A DNA stretch of 64,000 bases from Parietichytrium sp. I65-24A (taxonomy: Eukaryota > Sar > Bigyra > Thraustochytrida > Thraustochytriidae): the NCBI GenBank assembly GCA_012862575.1, contig BLSF01000046.1, forward strand, positions 186,001 to 250,000, written 5' to 3'. A model generated the notes under the pieces. It was not told the DNA's origin, made no database searches, and saw only the letters and a program-made list of their open reading frames with translations. Every line of letters begins with the position of its first letter. Position 1 is the first letter of the stretch. A program made the translations under genes and the position numbers. Below are positions 17,605 to 61,818 of the stretch, piece by piece.

Positions 17605-19806
17605 CTACTCCAGCCCCTGCGTGATGCCGTCTCTTATTTCGTAAGGGAATGGTGGACTCCAATCGCACTCTGGCACTTCCTCGTACTCGACAGGGTAATC
17701 GTCAAAGTTAGAGGTGTCTTCCGGAGAGCTGACCTTTGGCTTCAAAGGAGGCTCCAAGGTCCGGGCGTAGAGGCCATCCCAATCAAAGCCGCTGAACCAG
17801 CGATGCTTGATGATTCCTTGAATGCCCTCCTTCGTGTTTCCGAGGCGCTTGCTTTGGAATGGGTTCAAAAGGCGGCGAATGAGATCGCAGCAGTGTCGAG
17901 AAAAGTGCGATGGGAATTTGAGGTCCCCATCAAGAATCAGCTGGTATACGTCCATAGGGTCCTCTGCATAGAAAGGCACGTATCCTGCAGTCATTTCGTA
18001 CGTGAGGATACCAAGCGCCCAATAGTCGACGGCCTTGTCGTGTCCCTTAGAGAGAATGATTTCTGGGGCAAGATAGTCTGGGGTCCCGCAAAGAGTCCAC
18101 GTTCTGTCCTTGACAACCTTTGCAAGTCCAAAATCCACCACCTTAATATAGCCCTTGTCGTCAAGCATCAGATTTTCTGGCTTCAAGTCGCGATACACGA
18201 TGTCCTTCGAGTGCATGTGAGCAAACGCTTGTAGCACAATGCTAGAGTAGAATTTGGAAGCCTTTTCAACAAACCGACCAGCCTTGCGTAGGCAAGTGAA
18301 GAGCTCTCCTCCGAGGCAGAGCTCGAGAAGTAGGTAGACATACTTCTCGTCCCAATAGCTGTTGTAAAGCTTGAGCAAGAAAGGGTGGTCTATCATCGTC
18401 ATTACCTTGCGCTCGTCCACCACGTGGGCTTCCAGGCGATTTTCAACGATTTGAGATTTGTTCAGGCACTTGAGTGCGTATGTCTCGCCAGTATTCTTGT
18501 TCTTCACGATCTGAACCTTTCCAAATGCGCCTTGGCCAAGCACAATCTCGCGCTCGCTTCCTTGACGGCTCTTTGACGGAAATTTGCGCTCAAGATCCTC
18601 AAACTTGATCTCCTTGAGATACTTGTGCGCGAGAGCTTCGGACGTGTCTTCTTTCGTTTCCTCTGCTTTATCAGAGCCCGTTCGCGAGCGTAGCTCTTGA
18701 AGGGATCCAAGCAGGGTGACGAAGTCATTGCGGCCCATAGTCAAGCAGCCCACACGACTCTTTGCCGTGACGGTAGCAGCGCGCTTTTCTTCGGTAAGCA
18801 GAGCTTTATGGCCAAAGTAATCTCCCGCGCCACCCTTGCCCACGACACCCTCGTCCTTCTTGCTGTACTCGACCTCACCCCACTCGATGATGTAAAAGAT
18901 ATCTCCGATCTCTCCTTCGCGGATGATGACACTGCCCTCCTCGAACTCCTCTTCGTCCACGGCAGCTACAAGCCTGGAAAACTCTTGTTGGGTCAAGTTC
19001 TTGAGGTCTGGGACCTTCCTCAGGTATTCCTCAAACTGCGCCTTGCGAAGGATCTTGTGGTGCAGGTGGATGTTCCTGTAGTCTTGCCTATTGATGGCCC
19101 ACAATACGCAGTCCTGGCTCGCGCGGATCGTTGCGGCGCGAGGCTTGCTGTACATGAGTGCGAGCTCTCCAAAGCTCTGTCCCTCAGAGACCTGGCCGTA
19201 CTGCATTGGGGCCTGGCCAGCGCTCGGAGAGACGAGCACATCCAGCTTGCCGGACTCCACGACAAAGAACTTGTCTCCAACGTCGCCCTGGACGGTGGCA
19301 TCTTCGCCGGTCTTGAGCTCCACCTTGTAAAAGGCGTCCACGCACTCGTCCTTCTCCTCCTTGCGCAGTCCTTTGAACAACATGTTGGAGTCCACGCAAC
19401 TCCTGATAAGATCGCGCACGGTGTCCGGTTTGGGGACAACAATCCTTTCGTAGGACTCCGCGTCCTTGGCGTCGGTATTGTTGAGCTTATTCCATGCCTC
19501 CGCAGAGACCTCCTCACGGCGGTTGTTCTTCGTCGCAGGAGAGCCATTGAGCACCGAGGATGTCCTCATGTTGTTGTTGCCATCGATGATGGACGGCCGC
19601 AGCGGAGACCCGTTGCCGCCTTCCACTCGATTCGTCGGCGACGAAGCCACTTGCGCGCGCAGTTGCTGGATCTCCTTATTCGCAGAGTCCAGGTCCAGCG
19701 TCAGCTTGTGAATCTTCTCCGCTTGCTGCGCCATCAGCTTGGTCGTGTCCGGACCATCGCCGCCATTGCTCGCATTCCCGCCGTGTGTGCTGGCGGCGCC
19801 TCCCAT
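17605..19806 (-). CDS. Cyclic-nucleotide-dependent protein kinase, PKG architecture
   Basis: This is an intronless gene of 733 residues with an ATG start. In order: an N-terminal MGGAAST that fits an N-myristoylation signal; a leucine-rich coiled coil (about 22-53) suited to dimerisation; two cyclic-nucleotide-binding domains (about 143-255 and 262-380); and an AGC kinase domain (about 420-672). The kinase has all key residues: glycine loop GQGAFG 424-429, K446, E465, YRD 538-540, DFG 558-560, activation-loop T571 and APE 580-582. An AGC tail follows with FDDY at 701-704. The first phosphate-binding cassette is intact (FGELAL, R223). In the second (FGHKAL) the ribose-binding Glu is His333. 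Both cassettes read RAAT, not the RTAT typical of animal PKG, so cAMP may be the ligand. The fused regulatory and catalytic parts are PKG-like. The product is likely membrane-bound. Confidence 0.95.
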   Translation of the reverse strand: MGGAASTHGGNASNGGDGPDTTKLMAQQAEKIHKLTLDLDSANKEIQQLRAQVASSPTNRVEGGNGSPLRPSIIDGNNNMRTSSVLNGSPATKNNRREEVSAEAWNKLNNTDAKDAESYERIVVPKPDTVRDLIRSCVDSNMLFKGLRKEEKDECVDAFYKVELKTGEDATVQGDVGDKFFVVESGKLDVLVSPSAGQAPMQYGQVSEGQSFGELALMYSKPRAATIRASQDCVLWAINRQDYRNIHLHHKILRKAQFEEYLRKVPDLKNLTQQEFSRLVAAVDEEEFEEGSVIIREGEIGDIFYIIEWGEVEYSKKDEGVVGKGGAGDYFGHKALLTEEKRAATVTAKSRVGCLTMGRNDFVTLLGSLQELRSRTGSDKAEETKEDTSEALAHKYLKEIKFEDLERKFPSKSRQGSEREIVLGQGAFGKVQIVKNKNTGETYALKCLNKSQIVENRLEAHVVDERKVMTMIDHPFLLKLYNSYWDEKYVYLLLELCLGGELFTCLRKAGRFVEKASKFYSSIVLQAFAHMHSKDIVYRDLKPENLMLDDKGYIKVVDFGLAKVVKDRTWTLCGTPDYLAPEIILSKGHDKAVDYWALGILTYEMTAGYVPFYAEDPMDVYQLILDGDLKFPSHFSRHCCDLIRRLLNPFQSKRLGNTKEGIQGIIKHRWFSGFDWDGLYARTLEPPLKPKVSSPEDTSNFDDYPVEYEEVPECDWSPPFPYEIRDGITQGLE

Positions 19807-30410: not shown

Positions 30411-33400
30411 ATGGGCGTGCGGTGGAGCGAGTTGGCGGCGTGCGCGCTGTGGGCATGGGTTTGCGCGAGCATGGCCGGAGTGGGCGAAGCGCAGTTCATG
30501 GGCGTGGTGGAGTGCGACGCGAATATCCTGGACAGCGGGTTCAATGAGATGTTGTACAACGGGTTCGAGGATGCCAAGGACAAGTTGAATGTGACGTATG
30601 TGCTGCCGGAGAAGAACGGACAGAGCGAATGCATCTCGGAGTGGTCCTACGGGAAGCTCAAGGCGCTGATAGAGACGAACAACGTGCAGCACATCATCAT
30701 GAACGGGGAGAACGCCGTCAATGAGCTGAGCAATCACATGACTCAGCTCAAGGCTGACTTTAGCACCCTCAAATTCACGTCCGTGGACTACACGCCGAAT
30801 GATTTCGACAGCACCTGGACGGATTGGCAGACGGTCACCTTCAGCGAAGAGGCCGTCGCATACGTGGTGGGGTACTTGGCTGGAAAGGTGTCAGAGAGCA
30901 AGGTGATCGGTGGGCTGTTTGGCGTGCCGTACAGCCCTCTCAAACGCTTCAGGAACGGGTTCGCGGCCGGCGTAGCAGCTTCGTGCCCCAACTGCGTCGT
31001 ACACTCGACGTACATGGGTAGCTTTGACAGCGAGAACGGTGGGGGCCTCTTTGCAAACTACACGGTCGGATCCCTCGGGGCAGATGTCGTCTTTGCAGCT
31101 GCTGGGAATGCAGGCCTCGGAGCTCTGCGGGGAGCCGCTGCGAACGGAGCGTACGTGATCGGTGTCGATACGGACCAGTACTCCTATTTTTCGGACAATT
31201 ACCCGGAGCTAAAAGAATACCTCATCACGTCGGCCTTGAAGCCGGTGGAGAAAGCGGTCTCGGAGGTCATCTCAGACCACTTGAAGGGGGAATTTCAAGG
31301 CGGCCAAGTCAAGCTCTTGAAGTCGGTTGCCATCGCGGACTGCCACGATGCGTGCACCAAAATCAGCGAACAGTACGTTGCTGCAAAGGCCATCGTGAGC
31401 AAGGTGCAGGACAGCGTGGAGTTTCTGCAGGTCGAGTACAGCACCGGAGCTTTCGCGCTCAGCAAGCTGTATGGCACCGACGCGGCTTTCGACAGCTGGA
31501 CTTCTCCAGTTGGGATCTACGGCCCAGTGCCAGACGCTGCCTCGAAAGCAGCAACGACAACCTTTGAGTTCTACGGTGACCGCACGATGTACTTCTTCGG
31601 TGGCACAACCGATGCAAAGGCTGACGGGTCCAACGAACTCTGGAGCTTTAATGTGGGCAGTGTGACCTGGGAGCAACATTTCAACTACGACTCGTCAGCT
31701 GTGCCTGGCGCCCGGTTCTCTGCTTCACTGGGGTCGATCGCGACGGACGATGGTATGTCCCTCGTACTTTTTGGGGGCCAGTCCGGCGGGGATCTCCTGG
31801 GAGATACCTGGGAATACACATTGCCAACCAAAGCCTTCCCTCTTGGAGAATGGAAGCAGATCTCCACTGCGACCCATCCATCTGCTCGCGCTAATCACGC
31901 CGCTGCGTCAGCGGGCGACAAGGTCTATGTCTTTGGGGGCCAGGACAATGCAGGCCGCCTGTTGAATGATATGCACGTCTACGCCTCGGGAGCTTGGACT
32001 GAGGTTTGCTCCTCCTGTCACGATGCTCTTGTAGGGCGGTCTTATCACACCCTCACACCTTCCGAGGACGGCAAATTCCTCTACCTTCACGGCGGCCTTG
32101 ATTCGTCCCAGGCCCCTCTCTCCGATCTCTGGAAATACAGCATTGACGAAGACTCCTGGACGCGCCTTGCGGACAACACGGTGAAGAGGAGCTCGCATCA
32201 GGCGATCATGGTAGACGTCGTCGCTCCGGTAGCTTCGGCTGCAGATGAGGACATCAAGGTCCAGACGGCCCTTGCTTTTGTGGGTGGTTCGTTTGCGTCA
32301 TCGGCAACTGACCGCGAGAAGCGAAGTGTCGCCTACTATTTCCTTGACATGGACGAGTGGGTCAGCGTCTACAGCTACGATCCCTCGGCAGAGGCTCAGA
32401 GCTGCACCTCGGACTCGAGCGCTGAGGTCGTGGATGGCTATGTCAACTACAGGCCGCGCATGTCTTTCGTCGCCTTTCCCGGTCCAGCTCAGGAAGATGT
32501 TTTAGACACCGAGAAGATCATCATCTTTGGAGGAAGAAACGCTGATGGTGAGCTCCAAACGCGCCTGGACGTGTTCCATCCTGCCACTAAGCCGTACGAA
32601 GAGAATCTGAATCAGGTGCCTCAAGGGGTCATGTACGGCCTTTTGGTACTCTTTATCATCAGCGGGTCCCTCTCTGTTTTGCTATTGGTCTGGAGTTGGC
32701 GCAGGAGGCGCCATACTGTACTGCGCTCTGCACAATTCCCGTTCCTCTTCATGGTCGCCATTGGTGTTCTCGTCTCCTCGTCGGCTATCGTCCCCATCCT
32801 CATCGATGACACCAATGACATCAACGGTTACGCAAAACTTGGGGAGTACAAGCCGGCCAACATGGGTTGCATGGCAAGCGTTTGGCTTTTCACGACTGGC
32901 TTTATCTTGTCGTTTGCGCCTCTCTTTGCAAAAATGTGGAGAGTGCACAAAATTTTCTCGGATACCAAGCTCCGCAAGATTAAGATTAGCAATGCGCAAC
33001 TCTTTGGAGTGTGCTTCGTGCTCATGGTTATAGAATTGGCGATGGTCACTGCGTGGCAAGTTGTGGACCCGATGACCTTCCAGCGTGTGACGAAGACCTA
33101 CAACGAGCTAGGAAATCCAAGTTCCTCAGTGGCGTACTGCACCAGTGAAAAGTCGTACATATTTGTGATCGCCATCCTGGCCTTCCACATCGCAATTCTG
33201 CTGTACGGCAACTTTCTCAGCTGGAAAGCTCGCAAAATCGATGTCCGCTTTCAAGAGTCTCGCGGTATTGCGATCACGTTGGTTGCCAACCTCCAAGTGC
33301 TCGCGCTTTCTGCCCCGGTGCTTGTAATTGTCGCAGAGATCCCCTTGGCGCGTGTCACCATCCTTTGTGGTGTCATTTTCTTGAACTCGATGTCCATTTT

Positions 33401-33689
33401 GGGATTCATCTTCTTGCCAAAGTACATGATGGTCCACTCTGGCAAATACGATCTCAATACGAGCACCAACCAAAACAGCAGCAGCATGGCTGGCGGAAAT
33501 CATTTCAACAGCTCCGAAGGTCATTCCAACCCTACGTACGACGAGTCCATCGCTACTTCATTCCATGCTGAATACTTCAAGTCCACCGATGTCCGCCCGC
33601 CAAAGTCTGCACCACCATCTGCTCCTGGAAGCTTCGACAGCTTTAGCAGCTCCTACAAAGACCACAAGGAGGACGACTTTTCCGTCTGA
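30411..33689 (+). CDS. BMP-domain, kelch, class C-like seven-TM receptor
   Basis: This is an intronless gene of 1,092 residues with an ATG start. A signal peptide covers about residues 1-28. Next comes a periplasmic-binding-type BMP/PnrA domain (about 29-345), marked by DVVFAAAGNAGLGALRGAA followed by GVDTDQY, the nucleoside-lipoprotein hallmark. A kelch region follows (about 380-720) with six repeats centred on FFGG, LFGG, VFGG, LHGG, FVGG and IFGG. Seven transmembrane helices (about 740-1010) match GABA-B/class C receptors, including the FLPK motif near residue 1000 at the end of TM7. The cytosolic tail is Ser-rich. BMP-7TM receptors are known in Dictyostelium (Grl family); the kelch block between ligand domain and membrane is the unusual part. 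It probably binds a small extracellular ligand and signals through G proteins; the ligand is unknown. Confidence 0.95.
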   Translation: MGVRWSELAACALWAWVCASMAGVGEAQFMGVVECDANILDSGFNEMLYNGFEDAKDKLNVTYVLPEKNGQSECISEWSYGKLKALIETNNVQHIIMNGENAVNELSNHMTQLKADFSTLKFTSVDYTPNDFDSTWTDWQTVTFSEEAVAYVVGYLAGKVSESKVIGGLFGVPYSPLKRFRNGFAAGVAASCPNCVVHSTYMGSFDSENGGGLFANYTVGSLGADVVFAAAGNAGLGALRGAAANGAYVIGVDTDQYSYFSDNYPELKEYLITSALKPVEKAVSEVISDHLKGEFQGGQVKLLKSVAIADCHDACTKISEQYVAAKAIVSKVQDSVEFLQVEYSTGAFALSKLYGTDAAFDSWTSPVGIYGPVPDAASKAATTTFEFYGDRTMYFFGGTTDAKADGSNELWSFNVGSVTWEQHFNYDSSAVPGARFSASLGSIATDDGMSLVLFGGQSGGDLLGDTWEYTLPTKAFPLGEWKQISTATHPSARANHAAASAGDKVYVFGGQDNAGRLLNDMHVYASGAWTEVCSSCHDALVGRSYHTLTPSEDGKFLYLHGGLDSSQAPLSDLWKYSIDEDSWTRLADNTVKRSSHQAIMVDVVAPVASAADEDIKVQTALAFVGGSFASSATDREKRSVAYYFLDMDEWVSVYSYDPSAEAQSCTSDSSAEVVDGYVNYRPRMSFVAFPGPAQEDVLDTEKIIIFGGRNADGELQTRLDVFHPATKPYEENLNQVPQGVMYGLLVLFIISGSLSVLLLVWSWRRRRHTVLRSAQFPFLFMVAIGVLVSSSAIVPILIDDTNDINGYAKLGEYKPANMGCMASVWLFTTGFILSFAPLFAKMWRVHKIFSDTKLRKIKISNAQLFGVCFVLMVIELAMVTAWQVVDPMTFQRVTKTYNELGNPSSSVAYCTSEKSYIFVIAILAFHIAILLYGNFLSWKARKIDVRFQESRGIAITLVANLQVLALSAPVLVIVAEIPLARVTILCGVIFLNSMSILGFIFLPKYMMVHSGKYDLNTSTNQNSSSMAGGNHFNSSEGHSNPTYDESIATSFHAEYFKSTDVRPPKSAPPSAPGSFDSFSSSYKDHKEDDFSV

Positions 33690-42688: not shown

Positions 42689-45600
42689 ATGATAGAACGA
42701 GACAAGACGAAGACGCTGGCGGCGTTTTGCCCCAGGGAGGTGATCTACCACTTTGGCGAGAACAACTCGACACGCCTCACGGAGCCGCTCGTCATGGACC
42801 CCCACGAGTGCGTCGTGATGTGGATCGATATACACAAGTTCACCAGCCTAGGCGAGCGTCTCGCTGCGGACTCGCTCGGGCAGGCCATTTCTCAGTGCTT
42901 TGGAATCCTTATCCAAATTATTTCAGCCCACGGCGGGGACGTTCTAAAGTTTTGCGGTGACGCGCTACTGTGCTCGTTCCGCGATTCTCTCGGGGCGTAC
43001 GAAGATGAAGAGGATGGGCTCGATGCAGCCACCGTGGCGGCGTGCGCGTGCGCCCTTGAAATACAAAAGACAGAGTTTCGCGTCGAAGACGCACTCATGC
43101 AACTGAAAATTAGTATAGCTTTTGGCACCATGCATGCCATGTTAGTAGGGGGAACCAGAGACCGGTGGGAGTATCTCGTTGTTGGTGAGCCGTTGCAGCA
43201 GATCCGCGTCGCCGATGCACAATGCGACCCCGGGCAGGTCGTTCTTTCACATCAAGCTTTAAACAGACTTCTCCGAGCTGACCCACAGGCACAAGCGTGT
43301 GAAGCCAGGCCACACAACGTGCCCGTGCTAGGTCGTCGCGACACAGGTAGTAGCTTTGGTAGCACAAACTCACTCTTGAGCGCCTCAACGGCGTCCTTCA
43401 AAAGACATACTCATTCCCGCACGCACAGCGCGTTTTCCTCGCGGTCGAACCCAGCAAGTTTTTGTTCCGGCGCGACTGTACCAGATGCCTGCCCGAGTAT
43501 AGAAAGTAGTGGGCTGGACTGCAGAGAGACGCTTTCTGGGCTGCCTCCGCCGCTGTCCTCACCCGTGTCAGGATCTGGTGAAGACTTCCCAACGTCTCTG
43601 GATTCCTACACATCAATACTGAGCCCCCCGCTTGACTCTTTGGATTCTGCCCAGCTCAATCTTCCAAGAATCAGTAGCGGCTTTGTGGAGACATATGATC
43701 TTGAAACCTGCCAAAGTGCTACACAGGCTCCCATCGCTACTAAAAACATGACGCCGCGCTCCCCGTCCGTGGATAGCTGCTTATTGAGAAGACAGGATTC
43801 CTCACCGGTGCTCCCGTCTCCTGCTAGCTTGACGCCACCGCTGCAGCGAGCGAACAGCTTCGCGCACCAACGTCGTCCGAGATTTTCTAGGGCGAAGACT
43901 GATAGCACTTTGCCCCGTTGGAACCCCATCGAGGCCTCACTTTCTCGCAAACCAAGTGATCTTAGCGTCTCTGCCCCTTGCGATCCTGTCAATGTATTCC
44001 GTCTCATCTCGCTGGGCGAAAACTGTCGAGCTTTGACTGAAAGCAGATTACAAACTTCGTTGGACGCCTATTTGGATAATTTCGAGCAACCGCAAATTGA
44101 CACAGCCTCAATGTTGTCAGACTCTGCCCATCATCCGCTGGAGTCGTTTGTACCTTATCAGATCCGGAACAGGTTGTCGCAGCTGGATTCCATTTGCAAG
44201 AGTGACTACCGGTCTACTTTCTGGAACGACTCCGCATTCGCCGAGATGCGCTTCGTCACGGTGTTGTTTATTAAGATTCACTCAATCACAGAATTCAGCG
44301 TAACCCCGACTGAGAGCTCAGAGTTGTGCCATGATAATGTGAGCGACTATGAGCCTGAACAGGACGAGATGATTGGGTCAGACGTGGAGTGCAGCGCAAT
44401 ATACGAGAGTGCCTCTTTGTCGCACCGTTTTACAAGCCGATCAGATAAGTTCTCCAAGGACAAAGGACAAAAGCTGGCTGACGCCATTCACGAGTCCCTG
44501 GTGGTCATCGAGACGAACCTTTATAGGTACGGAGGCATGCTGCGGCAGATGACGTGCGACGACAAAGGCACCGTTGCAATTGGGGTATTTGGTGTTCCAG
44601 GCTCCTCGAGCTCGGCCCAATCAAATTTGCGCGCAGACGACGTTTCGTTCGCTGTCCTCTGTGCTCTCGAGATCTCCGACGGGCTCCGCAAACACGAGTA
44701 TGGTTTCGAGTCGTCCATTGGCGTTGCCACCGGCGAAGCATATTGCGGGATCATTGGATCCGAAACTCGGGCAGAGTACGCGATCGTTGGTGACACGGTG
44801 AATACCGCGGCTCGAATCATGGGCAAAGCCGATCCGAAGAACCCGTGTCGCGCGGTAGCTTGCGACTCCTTTACCAAACTGGAGTGCCAGGGCAGTTCAA
44901 TGATACAGTTTGACAACTATGAGGATCACGTCACAGTGAAGAATAAAGCTCTCTCTGTGGTTCTTCATTATCCGTTATTCCCAGAACAGCGGGTGCGTAG
45001 TGGCTCGGAAACTGTCCTTTTCGGCCAAAGTGTTGCCAAGTCAATCGTCGCGGACATTGCCTCCATGAGGCTTGCAGCCGTGCACGCAAATCAAGTTGTC
45101 CTCTTTCAGGGAAACCGAGGCGTGGGCAAAACCGCTATACTGGACTACATGATGGATCTCTCTCCTCAGCAAAGAAATTTGGGGACCTCGGCACTTCACC
45201 CGTCTACTTATAGCATTGCATGCTCGCGCGAAGTTTACGGGAGCAAAGCCGAGCGATTTGCTCCGCTCCGAGCGATGTACGCTCAAATGCTCTCTGTCGA
45301 CTCTGGTCGTGACAAGAATGGAAGCCTGGGATGGGTGACCAAGCTAACGACCTGCTTGTCCAAACGTGCAAGCAACTTGCTGCCTTACATCGAGCTGCTG
45401 AGCGACCTGTTTCCCGAGGCGCAAAGCGATTTCACAAAAGTTGTGTCTTCTCTTGGCGTATCAAGGGTTGAATATGGCAGTCAAATCGAGAGGCACGCGG
45501 CGCTGTGTTGTATCTTGGTGGCACTCTTCCAAATTTACCACCCTTTCAACCCTATTTTCTTGGCTATCGACGACGTCGACTACCTGCCAAAATCACTCTG

Positions 45601-46687
45601 GCCCTGGCTCGTTGTGCTGATTGCGACATGTTCCATGCGAGAGCACAGAAACCAGGACTTCTTCCCTGATTGTCACACAATTCCTTTGCTAAAGCAATTC
45701 AACAAGGCGAGCGATTCGGGAAGCAGCAAGCCTGGGAAGAGAGCCAGTCGTCCGTTGCTCTCTGTTGACACCCGCAAAGTTCCAATTTTTGAACCCGCTA
45801 TGATGCCAACATCGGCAGTGCACCGCACTGCCAGGCTCAGAAACGCCCGCTTTTCCGGTACTAGGCGACGGAGTTGCACTTCAGTTCCGGATCCTAACCT
45901 CTCGGTCCCGAGAATATCTCTGCTCGGCTCACCAAAAAACAACTCTCTGGGACCCTCTTCCTTTGGAGAAGACAAAGACAAGCGGTTACTGACCGACAGT
46001 GGAAAGATTCTTGGCGAGCACACAGCCGAAAAGGAACCGAAAACCTTCTGTTATCGGCGGCTCTCCAACTATGAAGTCGAGCCTGAATCGCTAGTTGAAA
46101 AACCTAGTTCGTGTCGAGCGGCGTACACGGCTGCCTGGCGACAAGAGGCTACGTTCAAAGCTCAATTTACCTCTTGGTTTGTGTCGGAGGATGAGGGCTT
46201 CAGTATCGAGGCTGTCAAGTATGCCTCAATATTTGGACTATACGAGTCAGGACCAAAGACTCTCTTGTCGGTTGTGATGACTGCGTCGAGCGAGATTCAG
46301 AACAACTTCCACAAATGCCTCGCGCTTCTCAAGCGCAATCACGGTATCGGCCGTGTCTCATTTCGACAAGTCCCTCTGCACCCACTAGACAGAGAGGCTT
46401 CGAATGCATATTTCGAGCATTGCATCCGAAAGACTCTGCCGGCTTGCGAAAGCATGCAGGCAGCGGCGTCTTTTGATTCTACCTTGCTCTCCAAAGTCCA
46501 CGAGTTTACGCGTGGGATCCCAACCATTATCAAGCTCTTGGCAGAAAAAACTTTTCGAGAGGGCATCATATGCTTTCCTCTCGGTAAGCTCTGGTATGAT
46601 CCAGATGCCCTTGCGAGAGCGTTTGGTAGTCTGCAAAAAGACTACGCTTACGTATTCGATGAGAAGCTTGATTCCTTTTCTGTATAA
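42689..46687 (+). CDS. Soluble-adenylyl-cyclase-type cyclase with P-loop ATPase domain (ADCY10-like)
   Basis: This is an intronless gene of 1,332 residues with an ATG start. It makes a cyclic nucleotide, probably cAMP, in the cytosol. Cyclase domain C1 (about 40-190) has both metal-binding Asp (D47 in WIDIHKF, D91 in FCGDALL). A Ser/Pro-rich linker of about 290 residues follows. Domain C2 (about 519-770) has Lys in place of the first metal Asp (LFIKIH) but carries the transition-state Asn705 and Arg709 (VNTAAR), which C1 lacks. The two domains therefore form one composite active site, as in human sAC. A P-loop (GNRGVGKT, about 808-815) starts the ATPase domain typical of this family. K87 and R173 align with the bicarbonate-binding K95 and R176 of human sAC. 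The C-terminal TPR-rich part of the 1,610-residue human protein is missing or shortened. Purine-specifying positions in C2 are non-standard, so substrate choice is less certain. Confidence 0.92.
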   Translation: MIERDKTKTLAAFCPREVIYHFGENNSTRLTEPLVMDPHECVVMWIDIHKFTSLGERLAADSLGQAISQCFGILIQIISAHGGDVLKFCGDALLCSFRDSLGAYEDEEDGLDAATVAACACALEIQKTEFRVEDALMQLKISIAFGTMHAMLVGGTRDRWEYLVVGEPLQQIRVADAQCDPGQVVLSHQALNRLLRADPQAQACEARPHNVPVLGRRDTGSSFGSTNSLLSASTASFKRHTHSRTHSAFSSRSNPASFCSGATVPDACPSIESSGLDCRETLSGLPPPLSSPVSGSGEDFPTSLDSYTSILSPPLDSLDSAQLNLPRISSGFVETYDLETCQSATQAPIATKNMTPRSPSVDSCLLRRQDSSPVLPSPASLTPPLQRANSFAHQRRPRFSRAKTDSTLPRWNPIEASLSRKPSDLSVSAPCDPVNVFRLISLGENCRALTESRLQTSLDAYLDNFEQPQIDTASMLSDSAHHPLESFVPYQIRNRLSQLDSICKSDYRSTFWNDSAFAEMRFVTVLFIKIHSITEFSVTPTESSELCHDNVSDYEPEQDEMIGSDVECSAIYESASLSHRFTSRSDKFSKDKGQKLADAIHESLVVIETNLYRYGGMLRQMTCDDKGTVAIGVFGVPGSSSSAQSNLRADDVSFAVLCALEISDGLRKHEYGFESSIGVATGEAYCGIIGSETRAEYAIVGDTVNTAARIMGKADPKNPCRAVACDSFTKLECQGSSMIQFDNYEDHVTVKNKALSVVLHYPLFPEQRVRSGSETVLFGQSVAKSIVADIASMRLAAVHANQVVLFQGNRGVGKTAILDYMMDLSPQQRNLGTSALHPSTYSIACSREVYGSKAERFAPLRAMYAQMLSVDSGRDKNGSLGWVTKLTTCLSKRASNLLPYIELLSDLFPEAQSDFTKVVSSLGVSRVEYGSQIERHAALCCILVALFQIYHPFNPIFLAIDDVDYLPKSLWPWLVVLIATCSMREHRNQDFFPDCHTIPLLKQFNKASDSGSSKPGKRASRPLLSVDTRKVPIFEPAMMPTSAVHRTARLRNARFSGTRRRSCTSVPDPNLSVPRISLLGSPKNNSLGPSSFGEDKDKRLLTDSGKILGEHTAEKEPKTFCYRRLSNYEVEPESLVEKPSSCRAAYTAAWRQEATFKAQFTSWFVSEDEGFSIEAVKYASIFGLYESGPKTLLSVVMTASSEIQNNFHKCLALLKRNHGIGRVSFRQVPLHPLDREASNAYFEHCIRKTLPACESMQAAASFDSTLLSKVHEFTRGIPTIIKLLAEKTFREGIICFPLGKLWYDPDALARAFGSLQKDYAYVFDEKLDSFSV

Positions 46688-48402
46688 ACTTCCTGTACCT
46701 TTTTAGAATGAATTTGTCAAACATTTATGTGTCGCTCTCAAACTGTTTATTCAGACAATGTGTCGAACCCACCTTCAAGCAAAACCAGTGTCCAGTCACC
46801 AGAAGTGTCAAGGCAAGGGATTTAATCGAGGCGTCGTGGGTTCCCTCGACTACGCGGGAACAATTGCACTGAGATAGACTGTTTCCTTGTGGCCAAATTC
46901 AGTATAGACAATCTGGAGAAGCATTCCCAATCTCTCAGCTAAGATTTCTTTCTTCAGGACCAGTAGTGCTTTCGTGAAAACACAAGTTTTGAAGAGGAAC
47001 AAGCACGCAAGATATTTTTCATGATAGAGTCTCGATGACATTTGGCTATTTATTTACCTTCTCTTTTCAACTTTACTGTCAATGTCTATGCGATGCATGG
47101 CAGCTCTCGGAATCGAAGAATGCGAAACTATGACCGCTACGGCTGTGCTGCGCCGCGAAGTCTAGACAAGTCTGTCACGCGAGGAGCGAGGTGAAAATAT
47201 CTCGCATGACGGGGCCTTGTATCCAATAAATACTCTTGGTATACACACTGGTTGAAACCACTCGCGACCGCGATGGGGCTTGAGCAGCCAGCCAATGATG
47301 ACCTGAGTAGGCCCGATACTCGATGTTGCACTCAGACTCGGGCGGAAATATACCAACGGACACCTCTACGACCTTGACTTGACAGTACACTTCGTCTAAT
47401 GCGCATTGTAACAGCGTTTGATTCTGCAGAGCTCGATGACAACGCTTGTTGGCAAAACACCGAAGCCCAGACTCCTCAGGTATCGGGCCAATGTCGTGAT
47501 GGCCATGATGAAGCTCCTTCTGCCTCGATGCATTTAGACTGGAATCCATGGCAGTCGTCTAATGCATCAAAGTGCACGATGACATGACAGCACTGCAGAG
47601 TCTCGTTCGAACCTGGCGCCCAACCAAAGAATCCGGGCCAAGGAGCACAAGGAGCGATCCGAACGGTTAGATTAGTCCAGTCTTAGTCTGTTGACAAAAA
47701 AAACTGACCCTATGAGCACCTATGAGTATCAGTTTGCTAACTTGGCAAATTACACTGCATTGCATTACACCCCACTCAGTCTCAGTCCGTGGTGAACGGT
47801 TGAGCTGGGCAGATTTAAGTTGACTGTGAATGACGTGATGTAAGAATTTGTATGTTAGCGCCGGCGCTGACAGCGCTGACAGCTGGCTGTGCCTGAGACT
47901 CGAGCACTACCGGTACTCTTCCTTCGTCTCAATCAAGTCGAAGTAGCCATACTCAATACTCAATTCTCCATACTGACTGTGAGTCAAGTCGGCAAACGAA
48001 CGAACGGTCATAATCGCTACGTCCATGTAGCTCACGCCAACGACACAGCTGGCTCAACACTGCTCTGCCATGCTCTGCCTTTCGCAGCTCTCTCACATGT
48101 CAATTCCAAGTGCAAGCTCCCGACTCACTCTGTACCATCACTACTCAATCGTCCAAATACGGCGTCCTGTGTCCTTTGTCCTGTGTCGTGTGCAAGTTGG
48201 CACCGAGAAATACCGGTGCGCTCGAAGGTTTCAAAAGGGAAGGACTCACCCAATCTAAAGGCTTCAGCCGCGCGGTAATCAGCTGCGAAAAGTGAGTCGC
48301 GACTGGTGCATAGGTCGTTCGTTCATTGTGTTCATTCGCTCGTCTGTTCACGGGGAGCGCAGCGGCCGGCGTTGAGTGAGGGCTGCGGTGGCTCGGGTCG
48401 CG
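46688..48402. other. Intergenic stretch between the cyclase and the GPR180-like gene
   Basis: No firmly supported gene. A 63-codon minus-strand ORF (46,850-47,041) is listed separately. At 47,100-47,650 the minus strand has natural-looking protein blocks in shifting frames (for example QQALSSSSAESNAV near 47,430), faintly like a copia RNase H segment, which suggests decayed coding DNA. The start region of the next gene (48,300-48,402) is probably its 5' UTR. Confidence 0.4.
46850..47041 (-). CDS. Possible small ORF or terminal exon, unknown
   Basis: An ATG-initiated frame of 63 codons with natural composition: a hydrophobic helix (KYLACLFLFKTCVFTKALLV) followed by an amphipathic one (EILAERLGMLLQIVYTEFG). 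It is tail to tail with the cyclase, 162 bp away. No family is recognised. It could also be the last exon of a longer gene, but I could not phase an upstream exon. Weak call. Confidence 0.25.
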   Translation of the reverse strand: MSSRLYHEKYLACLFLFKTCVFTKALLVLKKEILAERLGMLLQIVYTEFGHKETVYLSAIVPA

Positions 48403-50061
48403 ATGGGCTGCGCTCGTGCAAAGTGGAGCGCCGTGCTCGTTGCTGTGCTGAGCGTGTGTGGAGTAAATGGAGGCATCTCGAAGGGGCGATACCGCGGGTC
48501 GGAGTCGTGGAAGTACCTCGACCGGTTCTGCTTTGCTGACGGCAACGGATTCATGGTTGCAGAATTTCTCTTCCCAAAGAATGCGACGCCAGCCCTTATG
48601 GCGTATTTCATGGAAAGCGGGGCCGAGAATGAGTTTTCCACGTGGGAGGAGGTCTACAGCGGGACCATGTCGTGCGTTGAACGCTACGAGTATGCTCAAT
48701 TGACCTCCGGAACAACGTATGATTTGACACTGCCTAAATACTTGCAAGCCGAAGTGGTCGTAGACGGAGTGGAAATGAAGCTTGCAAGGGTGCGCACGAA
48801 TGTGCTCACGTCACGTAATCGATGGTTTTTCTTCGCGATAGGTAACTGCGACTCGACGTGCGACTCCAAGTATTGCGAGGGAAGCCTTGATGTGTACTGG
48901 GGATTCAACTTTACGAATGGGGATGGTTCGGACATGTACTTTGGCAGCGATCAGTCTGGCATGTTAGCTATCTGCGTGACATTTTTCGTTTTGTACTTGG
49001 GTTTGTCGCTGTATTCATTTTACGTGAAGAAGGTTCTGCAGAACGCTCGCAAAAACCATTTCACTGTTAGCTTGCTCATCGGCTCAATCGTGTTGACCCT
49101 CGTGCGTCTCTTCGGGAAGATGATTGAGCTTTTATTGTACAAAAGCGACGGAATCGTGCGAGAGGGGTGGAACAGCTTTGCGATTTCATTTGCTGCTCTC
49201 GCTGAGTTTCAGCTTATTCTGATGATCATGCTCATCCTGAAAGGGTGGACCATCGTTCGGCGGAAGCTATCTGCGAATGGCAGAATGCGCATTGCGGTAT
49301 ATATCATGTTGTATATCACAGTTTATGCCACCTGCCACATCTACTACGCCAATGGCGTCGACGATGCACTTGTCGTGTACGTGTATGACACTGTCTGGGG
49401 CTACTTGATGATTTCCTTCCGAGTTGTCTTATTTATCTGGGCGGTGCGAGCCCGATACCTGACCGTTCAGAGGTACAATGCGAAGAAGGGCTTTTACAAT
49501 AAATTCACCATGTTCGTGTCGGTGTGGATCTTGTCCCTCCCTGTATATGTGGCAGTCAACAAGCTCGTTGATGAATTTATGCGCGCAAAGATCATCTTTG
49601 GGATGGAGATGGGCATTCTTTTCCTGACGCACACAGTCCTCATCATGATGTACAACCCGAATTCTATCCTCTTTGGATCCAGCTTCCCTTTCCACGCGAC
49701 AACTAGCGCTATGCTGCAAAGCAAAGGCAGTGCGAAAGGACAGCTCACCTCTGGAATCACCGATGCCCATCTTCGTCAGGCGTCGGAAATCAGCCGAAAG
49801 ATTAAGCAAGGCATTCAGGTTCTCCAGACGTTCTCAGGAGACCTCGCAAGCTTCCTCACCGAGATCGATCCCGCGGAAACGGACTTGATCGAAAAAGACG
49901 AGGACCTTCCTGCAGCTAACAGCAGCAAGGTAGTTTCATCGTCCAGCGCAAGTCAAGTTTTCGCGCGGAATCGAAGCAAGAAACCTCGGAACATAATCCC
50001 GAAAGCGTCGCAAGACGAGGCCGCGAAAGCACCATCTGTCGAGAAAGGCGGCCAGCCCTAG
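48403..50061 (+). CDS. Seven-TM protein of the GPR180/TMEM145 (GOST) family
   Basis: The protein is 552 residues from the first ATG (48,403); the frame stays open further upstream only from a GTG. A cleavable signal peptide is clear (about residues 1-23). A lumenal beta-rich domain of about 160 residues contains paired cysteines (CDSTCDSKYC), as in the GOLD-like domain of this superfamily. Seven helices follow, from SGMLAICVTFFVLYLGL to MEMGILFLTHTVLIMMYNPN, with the YNP end typical of intimal-thickness-related receptors (Pfam GpcrRhopsn4). The cytosolic tail is Ser/Lys-rich. Relatives (GPR180, TMEM145, and more distantly TMEM87, GPR107 and Wntless) act mostly in Golgi and secretory trafficking rather than as classical GPCRs, so a trafficking role is most likely. 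TMEM145 and GPR180 cannot be told apart by eye. Confidence 0.85.
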   Translation: MGCARAKWSAVLVAVLSVCGVNGGISKGRYRGSESWKYLDRFCFADGNGFMVAEFLFPKNATPALMAYFMESGAENEFSTWEEVYSGTMSCVERYEYAQLTSGTTYDLTLPKYLQAEVVVDGVEMKLARVRTNVLTSRNRWFFFAIGNCDSTCDSKYCEGSLDVYWGFNFTNGDGSDMYFGSDQSGMLAICVTFFVLYLGLSLYSFYVKKVLQNARKNHFTVSLLIGSIVLTLVRLFGKMIELLLYKSDGIVREGWNSFAISFAALAEFQLILMIMLILKGWTIVRRKLSANGRMRIAVYIMLYITVYATCHIYYANGVDDALVVYVYDTVWGYLMISFRVVLFIWAVRARYLTVQRYNAKKGFYNKFTMFVSVWILSLPVYVAVNKLVDEFMRAKIIFGMEMGILFLTHTVLIMMYNPNSILFGSSFPFHATTSAMLQSKGSAKGQLTSGITDAHLRQASEISRKIKQGIQVLQTFSGDLASFLTEIDPAETDLIEKDEDLPAANSSKVVSSSSASQVFARNRSKKPRNIIPKASQDEAAKAPSVEKGGQP

Positions 50062-59036: not shown

Positions 59037-60419
59037 TCAAAAGATCGTGACACTAGCAATGTGGCCGCTCTTCATGACTTCGAAAACACAACCTTCATGG
59101 GCGTAAAGATATGTCGCCCCGAATGGATTCGCTACAACTCCCGAGTCGTGGATCATCGGCCGGCCGCACGGGCCCAAGAGGGATTCTACTTCGCCCCATT
59201 TCATGTGGGGTTTGACGATGACGACATCCTCAGCCGCAGCACTCTGTTCAGGGTCACCAGCATCCGAGGTACGCTGCGACTCCGAAGTAAAGATGATGCG
59301 AAATTCGCATTTATTGTATTGCGAAAATTCGTAGTGGCCAGGAACGTTGGTATGTACAATGACTTTCTTCAATCTGTGCGTGATCCCGTCAATCAGCAAG
59401 TCAAAGCCAAGCCCAAAGTAGTTGTAGAAATAGTCCGATGGCTGAAAGCACGCTTGAGGATCGCGTTCCGCCACTCTAGCGACGACGGGCACTTGCTCCG
59501 GGGCGTCGCTGTCAGAGTCTGTATCACGTGGGCTCTGCACGACCAGACTGTACTGCCTCGACTTTTTAGGCTTTGAATCCGGCGTGGCGGGGCCAGGATT
59601 TGGATCGCTTGAGTGAATTCTCATACGGTTATCTTGTCGAAAGTAAATACGTGCTGGCTCTCCGAGCTCGCTCAGAATGTCTTGCACCGAAGACCCAATT
59701 TGAAAGCTCCGGTGGCGACCAAGAAGTTGGATGGATGGAGGAGCACTCTTGCCATCTCGAGTAAAATTGAAGCAGACTTCGTCCAAGTACGAGGGAGTAA
59801 GGGTCGTTAAGGTGATGTCTGGGCTGACCGTCGCGTCCAGAGAGCTCAACGCGGCGTTGGACACCGTTGTCACCACTACCGCATTGCGTTCATCGTAGCC
59901 ACTATACACCATCATTCTGTCCACCAACGGGGAGCCTCCGCCGTCTGGGAGCTCCAACGGAAGTTCTTGCCCGCTCGTGTATTTTTCGCGGTACTTTTCA
60001 GGGATTGAAAACATGAAGCTGATACCCTTGTAGCGCAAAAAGTACTTTTCAAGCTCTGGCTCGAAAGACCCTGGATACGTCGGGCCAAAGAGGCGGTACA
60101 GCTCAAGAAACGTAGACCGCTTCTGCGCAGCAGTGCCAAACGCAGACCCGGAGTACATGAAGGCAAGTTTTGAAGTGTCAAAGACGTCGATCATGACCAG
60201 CTTTTGTGTCATGGGCTCAAACCGCAGATGCAAGCCAAAGTCCTCCACCTTGAGCACAATCTCTCGCATCAGTGGCCTCTTCTGCGAGTACATCACGTCC
60301 ACGCGCGGCCTAAGCGGCACGAAATTTTTCCGAAGCAACTCCAGGGCGTCGTTCACACCCATGCCCAGAACAAAACATCCCAGTCTCTCGCCTGGCACAA
60401 CTTCCATGGACTGCGACAT
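59037..60419 (-). CDS. PHAF1: PHAF1 / UPF0183 family protein (phagophore assembly factor)
   Basis: The protein is 460 residues from the ATG at 60,419 (MSQSMEVVPGERLGCF). The frame extends 46 codons upstream, but that DNA is GATGGATC-type repeat, and the family starts just before the LEVVP-like motif. Landmarks shared with human C16orf70/PHAF1, from memory: LGM followed by a helix; SGxxFGTAAQ; LFGPTYPG (human FGATHPG); the block near residue 245 with SSVQDILSELGEPARIYF (human SCQDVLSMLGSPHKVFY) and KMxIHS; DYFYNYFGLGFDLLIDG; KKVIVHTNVPGHYEFSQY; NPFG; and the C-terminal FEVMKSGHIASVTIF. The human protein goes to forming autophagosomes with BCAS3. An insert rich in Ser/Asp/Pro separates two conserved blocks. 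The family match is strong; the autophagy role in this organism is inferred. Confidence 0.93.
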   Translation of the reverse strand: MSQSMEVVPGERLGCFVLGMGVNDALELLRKNFVPLRPRVDVMYSQKRPLMREIVLKVEDFGLHLRFEPMTQKLVMIDVFDTSKLAFMYSGSAFGTAAQKRSTFLELYRLFGPTYPGSFEPELEKYFLRYKGISFMFSIPEKYREKYTSGQELPLELPDGGGSPLVDRMMVYSGYDERNAVVVTTVSNAALSSLDATVSPDITLTTLTPSYLDEVCFNFTRDGKSAPPSIQLLGRHRSFQIGSSVQDILSELGEPARIYFRQDNRMRIHSSDPNPGPATPDSKPKKSRQYSLVVQSPRDTDSDSDAPEQVPVVARVAERDPQACFQPSDYFYNYFGLGFDLLIDGITHRLKKVIVHTNVPGHYEFSQYNKCEFRIIFTSESQRTSDAGDPEQSAAAEDVVIVKPHMKWGEVESLLGPCGRPMIHDSGVVANPFGATYLYAHEGCVFEVMKSGHIASVTIF

Positions 60420-61818
60420 CCCTACACAACTTCTTGATTCAACTTGTATACCAAAACCCCTTTCCGCCCACTTCATCAACTGGATGGATCGATCGATCGA
60501 TGATGAATAGATGATGAATCGATGGATAGATGGATAGATCACACACACAATATACAACAGGATCTCCTTTCTCGCAAGTCTCTCACACCAACGTATCGCT
60601 TATCACTTCCAGTTGCCCACGCCTGCTCTCCGTGCTGTTTCCCCGACAACTATAGAAGTTATTACCCTTATTCTATCGGTAAATTACGTTTGCCGTCCTC
60701 GCGGACACTCTTCTCTCTCTTGCGTTTTGGTTTTGGACTTGCTCACTCTCCATCGCTTATTGTTTATACTATTCGAACTCTACTGTGGTGCGTTAATAAT
60801 TGTCGTAGGTGAAGAGTAGTGCAATTTCGGCTTCACTGCGGTAGGAGGTGTTATACAATGCTAATTGTAATTATGGGGGTTGGTAGGTTGGATAGGCTTT
60901 TGGTGTTCTAGGGGATTGTGGTAGGTGGGGTGGAGGAGGAAATTTCCCGGTTCAGTAGAGACTGGCTATGATAGATTCAACCTTCAACCTTCAACATTCA
61001 TTGAACAACAATCAACATTCAACCTTCAACCTTCAACCTTCAACCTTCAACCTTCAACCTTCAACCTTCAACCTTCAACCTTCAACCTTCAACCTTCAAC
61101 CTTCAACCTTCAACCACATTTTTTAATTAAACATTCAACATTCACGTTGGAAGTGTTTGGGGTTCGAAATGCGATGGGCTCTCGATGTGCCGAGGAATAC
61201 CAGAGTAGAGAAGACACACTTTGCTGCCTTTTGCGTCGAGTATTTGAGATGGTTTTTTGACTTGCTTGGGCATGGAATAGTGAAAGGGAACTGCAAATCA
61301 GAGGCGGCTTGAGATTGGCGCTGAAAGCGAAGCAGGTGACAAAGGCGACTTTTGGGTCTTCATTCTTCCGTTCATTCCTTCGATCTATCATTCATTCATT
61401 CATTCATTCACCGGATCAATCTCAATCAGTTCCGTTGTTGTCTGAAGCAATGCTGGGAATTTCATATGCTCCCGGAAGAAGCTCCAAGCGCTGAGTTTTA
61501 AGAGTTGATGATAAATCGTGTGCCGCGTTCGAGCTAGAACTGACAGGGGTTTTCGAATTGCTTACTATGTAAAGAGATCTCCTTTCGGTTAGAGGGGTTC
61601 GTTCTCCGACTACAACACAGTGCGAATGGCGACAGTAGGATCGGGATTGGTTCAATCCAATCACAACTGGCAAACATTTTAAAATTATGGAGACGAGGGT
61701 GAAAAATCGGTGTCAATGATGAGTTTCGGATTAAATCGATTCGCTGACGGAGCACCAGCGTGCGTGTTATAAAAAATGTTCGTGAGTGACGGGAGGAGGG
61801 GCAAAGACAACATTCTTC
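60420..61818. other. Intergenic stretch with a large heptamer array
   Basis: The 5' side of PHAF1 has a GATGGATA/GATC simple repeat (60,484-60,540). It also holds the CAACCTT array and an ATTC run (61,389-61,411). No gene could be recognised before 61,819. Confidence 0.55.
60978..61110. repeat. CAACCTT heptamer minisatellite
   Basis: Thirteen perfect CAACCTT units run from 61,020 to 61,110. They are preceded by three related units at 60,978-60,998 and one CAACATT at 61,013-61,019. The unit is 7 bp like a telomere repeat, but the sequence is not the known stramenopile or plant TTTAGGG, and it lies between ordinary genes. Confidence 0.95.

Follow-up and report, generated by a model that had tools for sequence, protein, structure and literature searches.

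A gene of Parietichytrium sp. I65-24A that joins a Bmp domain, a predicted kelch propeller and a class C seven-transmembrane domain in one frame

A gene at positions 30411-33689 of a 64,000-nucleotide stretch of the genome of the thraustochytrid Parietichytrium sp. I65-24A (contig BLSF01000046.1, positions 186,001 to 250,000; the whole stretch is called the window, and positions are counted from its first letter) encodes a protein in which a bacterial-type Bmp domain, six kelch repeats and a class C seven-transmembrane (7TM) domain follow one another in a single reading frame. Bmp-7TM receptors are known, and the presence of a predicted kelch propeller between the Bmp and 7TM parts suggests an undescribed variant of the class C receptors. 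From its sequence and predicted structure the protein may be a class C G-protein-coupled receptor (GPCR) for a nucleoside-like extracellular ligand, a reading for which we consider the evidence about evenly balanced. The gene and its parts were laid out as follows.

30411-33689, forward strand: Bmp-kelch-7TM class C receptor gene (single frame of 1092 amino acids (aa) and a stop codon; Pfam matches and paralogs)
30411-30491, forward strand: putative signal peptide, about residues 1-27 (hydrophobic stretch 7-26, read from sequence alone)
30492-31340, forward strand: Bmp/PnrA flytrap domain, residues 28-310 (Pfam Bmp, PDB profile matches and fold match)
30540-31241, forward strand: span of the candidate nucleoside-pocket residues F44, F180, F205, D253 and K277 (alignment and spacing to F27, F151, F176, D225 and K242 of BmpA)
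31341-31484, forward strand: linker, residues 311-358, which starts with a conserved cysteine pair, CHxxC (C311, C315)
31494-32588, forward strand: predicted six-bladed kelch propeller, residues 362-726 (Pfam and predicted structure; blade 6 taken to be completed by the SWT strand 362-364)
32616-33440, forward strand: class C 7TM domain, GABA-B-like, residues 736-1010 (Pfam 7tm_3; Cys 820 and Cys 910; FLPK at 1001-1004)
33441-33686, forward strand: cytoplasmic tail, residues 1011-1092, unconserved (none of the 82 residues is invariant across the five intact paralogs)

The frame runs from an ATG at 30411 to a stop codon at 33687-33689 without an internal stop, in an intron-poor genome. Pfam models matched all three parts above their curated cut-offs: Bmp over residues 35-300 (E 5.4e-37; 127.8 bits against a cut-off of 24.1), kelch models (best E 1.2e-34, best stretch 391-601, plus a second stretch) together with the ATRN-LZTR1 propeller model, and 7tm_3 over residues 741-1004 (E 1.2e-39; 136.9 bits against a cut-off of 33.5). 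A first interpretation made from the letters of the DNA (the sequence-only reading) had claimed such a fusion in one frame, and the open frame of 1092 aa with its three domain matches agrees with it; the peptide quoted there for the Bmp/PnrA domain was found in the protein, and the six FGG-type kelch motifs were located, ending at residues 398, 456, 510, 562, 626 and 708. Seven membrane helices lie between residues 735 and 1009 in the helix list of the full-length model (grouped by hand), and a hydropathy scan returned the same helices with the last two merged. The same reading had described seven helices ending in FLPK; the seven helices stand, but FLPK is not the end of the protein, as a tail of 88 residues follows residues 1001-1004.

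The genome, a 42.5 Mb assembly of 172 contigs with genes eukaryotic in kind, was searched with profiles, which gave at least 22 matches to Bmp, at least 82 to 7tm_3 and at least 53 to Kelch_3. The 22 Bmp matches were made up of eight Bmp-kelch-7TM loci (kelch-type), 13 Bmp-7TM loci lacking kelch (kelch-free) and one fragment. With eight loci of the same architecture in the genome, an isolated odd fusion is ruled out. One of the eight is the window gene (contig C46), four stand in tandem on contig C85, and the remaining three are on contigs C5, C7 and C19. Five of them (the window gene, L003, L007, L008 and L010, on five contigs) are intact, each a single frame with all three domains above cut-off, and the joints between domains and the linker can be aligned across the kelch-type paralogs. 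The three broken loci are all on C85, where L004 and L006 have a common in-frame TGA within the kelch part and L005 has a one-base gap within the 7TM part. Kelch_3 and 7tm_3 occurred at the same locus only where Bmp was also present (places compared by eye), and among the thirteen kelch-free loci (L011-L023) no kelch was found in the nine scanned with Pfam and no Kelch_3 match at the other four. One of those nine carries a TIG match near its N terminus. The Bmp fragment (L009) lies on C7, about 12 kb from the intact receptor of that contig, and carries a stretch resembling that gene's linker.

The four other intact kelch-type copies are 31-37% identical to the window receptor, and the residues invariant in all five number 46 of 283 in the Bmp part, 47 of 368 in the kelch part, 54 of 275 in the 7TM part and 0 of 82 in the tail. 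Between copies of the C85 array, the fraction of differing synonymous sites was 0.25-0.81 in the Bmp part, 0.01-0.21 in the kelch part and 0.13-0.45 in the 7TM part. On these figures gene conversion seems to have homogenised the kelch part, with the Bmp part mostly kept apart. This mosaic has exceptions: L004 and L006 also resemble each other midway through the Bmp part, and L003 is unlike L004 and L005 in the middle of the kelch part. The ratio of nonsynonymous to synonymous substitution (dN/dS) among the C85 copies (L003-L006) was 0.12-0.32 in every region and pair for which it could be computed, the exceptions being three Bmp pairs with L003 (synonymous saturation) and three identical pairs just before the first membrane helix (TM1; ratio undefined). 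Judged by these ratios, substitution in the C85 copies is purifying. The fusion is not a product of chance, because all four of the other intact paralogs keep the whole architecture and dN/dS in the C85 copies is 0.12-0.32.

The ectodomain (residues 25-740) was modelled from an alignment of 32 rows, namely the window receptor, seven pieces of six kelch-type loci (L003, L007, L008, L010, L005 and two of L004) and 24 bacterial Bmp domains. The model reached a predicted local distance difference test score (pLDDT) of 84.6 and a predicted template modelling score (pTM) of 0.85, with low confidence at residues 336-348 (below 50) and 657-679. Its kelch part matched LZTR1 (9mf0_D; Z 32.8, root-mean-square deviation (rmsd) 2.9 over 297 residues) and KLHDC2 (8ebl_A; Z 32.5), and its Bmp part matched the guanosine complex of Lbp (7x0r_A; Z 29.0, rmsd 4.3 over 301 residues) and the adenosine complex of BmpD (6shu; Z 28.5, rmsd 4.5). 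Foldseek placed the same proteins high (LZTR1 9mez_D, 6.7e-19; Lbp 7x0r_B, 8.4e-18); the fold-search lists comprise the top 50 rows each, mostly kelch chains, and are uninformative on other folds. Five predicted blades have four strands and the sixth has three C-terminal strands. Propellers usually close by an N-terminal strand that completes the last blade. Read from the strand list, the invariant SWT strand (362-364) sits where it would complete blade 6 and so close the predicted propeller. That the six repeats close as a six-bladed beta-propeller, which the sequence-only reading had named as a point to check, is borne out by the prediction, with Z 32.8 to LZTR1. A full-length model built from eight rows was weak (pLDDT 56.1, pTM 0.41), and its kelch part was still KLHDC2-like (Z 31.4).

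The case for a nucleoside-like ligand comes from the pocket of the Bmp domain. A profile of the eight kelch-type Bmp domains matched Lbp (1.5e-44) and TmpC/PnrA (2.8e-41) in the PDB. As described in PMC13325309, BmpA and its relatives hold the ligand among Phe27, Phe151, Phe176, Val224, Asp225 and Lys242, of which Asp225 and Lys242 are the ribose-engaging residues in bacterial nucleoside receptors, and binding by BmpA requires Phe27 and Phe176; adenosine is reported to be bound by BmpD (PMC7093131). The equivalents in the window receptor are F44, F180, F205, V252, D253 and K277. The alignment used for the pocket and for the Bmp tree held the eight kelch-type domains, nine of the 13 kelch-free domains and 25 of 80 bacterial rows, the last after thinning at 70%. 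D253 and K277 are kept at all eight kelch-type loci and in all 25 bacterial rows, and the three Phe positions are aromatic in every row of both sets; among the kelch-type domains F180 is Phe in all eight, F205 is Phe in four and Tyr in four, and F44 is Phe in seven and Tyr in one. Judged by these residues, the kelch-type receptors appear equipped to bind a nucleoside-like ligand. In the nine kelch-free receptors D253 is replaced by Asn or His, K277 by Ile or Leu, and F180 by a non-aromatic residue, so that all nine are without the ribose Asp and Lys. As far as a divergent alignment can be trusted, the kelch-free relatives appear to keep part of the aromatic sandwich and to have lost the ribose contacts. 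Of the nucleoside or steroid-like ligands suggested by the sequence-only reading, the nucleosides gain from a pocket of the kind found in nucleoside-binding proteins, and the steroid-like ligands found no support here.

The membrane part of the protein is of the GABA-B kind. The top PDB sequence match of the window protein falls in the 7TM domain and is GABA-B subunit 2 (9jqx_B, 9.1e-25), and C820, C910, F1001, P1003 and K1004 are invariant in five of five intact paralogs. Class C receptors are marked by a cysteine pair that joins the third membrane helix (TM3) to the second extracellular loop (ECL2) in a disulphide, and by F.PK at the end of the seventh helix (TM7). C820 and C910 presumably form the TM3-ECL2 disulphide, and we take F1001, P1003 and K1004 to be the class C TM7 end. 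A flytrap stands N-terminal to the 7TM domain, as in class C receptors, in the form of the Bmp domain at 28-310, whose predicted fold is like that of nucleoside-bound solute-binding proteins. The genome has 24 G-alpha matches, ten of which cover most of the model in a single stop-free frame; an eleventh does so with two stops.

If the receptor works as these parts suggest, the protein would be secreted to the cell surface, the Bmp flytrap would close on a nucleoside, and the stiff propeller with the short stretch 727-735 would pass the movement of the flytrap to TM1, upon which the 7TM domain would activate one of the cell's heterotrimeric G proteins. A cysteine-rich domain lies between flytrap and 7TM in the metabotropic glutamate receptors (mGluRs), and GABA-B receptors are described without it (PMC12716839); the propeller would stand where the mGluRs have that domain. 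We offer more tentatively the fuller proposal that the protein is a flytrap-type eukaryotic nucleoside receptor of another class than the animal adenosine and P2Y receptors, in which the propeller takes over the relay role of the mGluR cysteine-rich domain and may supply a second input, from a protein or glycan. Animal purinergic GPCRs belong to class A. Should the pocket work as its residues suggest, the organism would have a class C GPCR that senses nucleosides by means of a bacterial-type flytrap, and the kelch-free Bmp-7TM family of the same genome, without the ribose Asp and Lys in the nine tested, would serve as an internal control. The architecture also indicates that the piece between flytrap and 7TM can be a beta-propeller, a natural variant on which to test how movement reaches the membrane in class C receptors.

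Several points weigh against a nucleoside receptor of this design. The pocket was mapped by alignment and spacing and not from a ligand in the model, and the structural alignments of the Bmp part have an rmsd of 4.3-4.5. The pocket varies among the kelch-type copies themselves, the C19 copy having Tyr at F44, Tyr at D41 and Glu at D126 and the four C85 copies having Tyr at F205 and Ala at V252. The kelch-free receptors are still aromatic at F205 (9/9) and have Trp at F44 (8/9, with one gap), and their rows are divergent, which makes their alignment at the pocket columns less sure. In the full-length model the 7TM part is of low quality, with blocks at 39-75 pLDDT. The dN/dS ratio partly reflects past selection, since it was counted over four C85 copies of which three are broken. 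In Dictyostelium, reports connect BMP-type Grl receptors with folate, polyphosphate, a protein factor and a steroid pathway (PMC10445921), so that a nucleoside ligand does not follow from a Bmp domain being joined to a 7TM.

Other readings of the same protein were weighed against that of a nucleoside receptor. The sequence-only reading had favoured a dual-input receptor, in which the propeller would bind a ligand of its own (a surface protein, glycan or matrix), the Bmp pocket would bind a small molecule, and both would tune the 7TM domain. Peptide or protein ligands are known for many structurally solved kelch propellers (KLHDC2, LZTR1, KLHL12 and Keap1), and same-genome relatives carry putative surface-binding modules (Laminin_G_3 with Cadherin_4 in one and Cadherin_4 in another, of eight scanned), but the 47 invariant kelch residues are, on reading, mainly residues of the fold (GG pairs, Trp, Arg/His, Cys), and in the C85 array it is largely the kelch part that looks homogenised, which does not suggest diversification for ligands. 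We regard this arrangement as rather unlikely, and a role of the propeller as relay or spacer as at least as likely. Less probable again is a Bmp pocket for some other small molecule, for example folate or a pterin, on the model of GrlL from Dictyostelium. Folate is bound by GrlL and GrlG (PMC10445921), each of which is recorded as having a BMP domain (PMC1885808), and the paralogs vary around the pocket loop, but a ligand free of ribose would not need the residues equivalent to the ribose-engaging Asp225 and Lys242 of BmpA (PMC13325309), which are kept at all eight kelch-type loci. That two genes or an assembly join were read as one frame, a possibility that the sequence-only reading had allowed for and that was checked in part through the paralogs, or that the gene is decaying, is highly improbable: it could draw on the broken frames at three of the eight loci (all on C85), but the three domains stand in the same order in one frame at five intact loci on five contigs, joints and linker align, the C85 substitutions are purifying and 1092 codons pass without a stop, and the two-gene reading was rejected on this paralog evidence.

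The nearest described systems are the Grl receptors of Dictyostelium, most of whose 17 members carry a BMP domain (PMC1885808; PMC10445921). The comparison with them drawn by the sequence-only reading was apt, since most Grl proteins are described as a signal peptide, a BMP domain and a 7TM domain (PMC1885808), and the BMP-type members such as GrlJ and GrlL/fAR1 have, like the window receptor, a signal peptide, Bmp and a class C 7TM (PMC1885808, PMC10445921). Bmp and 7TM thus occur in one protein in the window receptor as in the Grl type, but ten BMP-positive Grl proteins in Table 1 of PMC1885808 have 704-800 aa, whereas the window receptor has 1092 aa and a propeller between the domains. Bacterial PnrA/TmpC, BmpA, BmpD and Lbp have the Bmp fold and the pocket residues in common with it; the bacterial Bmp proteins are described as solute-binding proteins with a role in ABC (ATP-binding cassette) transport (PMC7093131, PMC13325309), whereas the window version would be the ligand domain of a eukaryotic 7TM protein. 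With GABA-B and other class C GPCRs it has in common the 7TM, the TM3-ECL2 cysteine pair and the flytrap on the outside, but their ligand domain is ANF_receptor and that of the window receptor is Bmp, with a kelch propeller added between flytrap and membrane. The propellers of the LZTR1, KLHDC2 and attractin type have a six-bladed fold like that predicted for the window kelch part (Z 31-33). Of these, LZTR1 and KLHDC2 work as adaptors inside the cell, and attractin has a single membrane helix and lacks a 7TM domain. Unusual extra domains have already been described in GPCRs (PMC6033456, PMC12716839). The word kelch is absent from the main text of PMC1885808, PMC10445921, PMC6033456 and PMC12716839, and no paper on a kelch-bearing 7TM receptor was found in a search of mostly open-access literature (title, start of abstract and word counts), with eukaryotic proteomes outside its scope.

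The two Bmp-7TM families were compared in trees of either domain. The 7TM tree held 60 rows of the 82 matches (weaker ones omitted), with seven kelch-type, 13 kelch-free Bmp and 40 other rows, L005 being left out for its broken 7TM frame. A 26-row fork united the kelch-type rows and 19 others and did not include the kelch-free Bmp group. A single group of both families was rejected by the 7TM tree in the approximately unbiased (AU) test (p-AU 0.0048) and not by the Bmp tree (p-AU 0.316), in which a branch supported at 95/94 sets off both families together with two bacterial rows. The eight kelch-type Bmp domains form one group at 100/100. The kelch-type 7TM group was weakly supported (78/35) because the window 7TM falls outside the 100/99 group formed by the other six. 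The bacterial relatives of the Bmp domain, taken as the best 80 of 540 loci, were 26-37% identical over the best segment; with this identity and the single kelch-type group, a recent transfer of the domain from a sampled bacterium is not supported. A scan of IMG/VR with the Bmp alignment gave 78 stretches that matched the pattern, none of which codes for a relative.

Eight of the 19 other receptors in the fork were scanned with Pfam; five carried ANF_receptor, two Cadherin_4, and one had no ectodomain match. Among the class C receptors of the genome, L149 and L152 have more than one periplasmic-binding stretch, and L151 carries Laminin_G_3 and Cadherin_4. Elsewhere in the genome, no match to the PUFA synthase PfaA exceeded the cut-off; one of two TIM genes has a frame in which inspection by eye showed no fusion to GAPDH, and the second has a frame of 256 aa.

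Four other genes of the window were noted. On the reverse strand, 17605-19806 encodes a kinase of 733 aa with two cyclic-nucleotide-binding stretches, PKG-like, and 59037-60557 encodes a homologue of PHAF1 (phagosome assembly factor 1; 7.2e-96). On the forward strand, 48376-50061 encodes the second 7TM protein of the window, of the GPR180/TMEM145 type with its N-terminal domain, and 42689-46687 is a frame of 1332 aa with two class III cyclase stretches, an arrangement that we take to be like that of soluble adenylyl cyclase.

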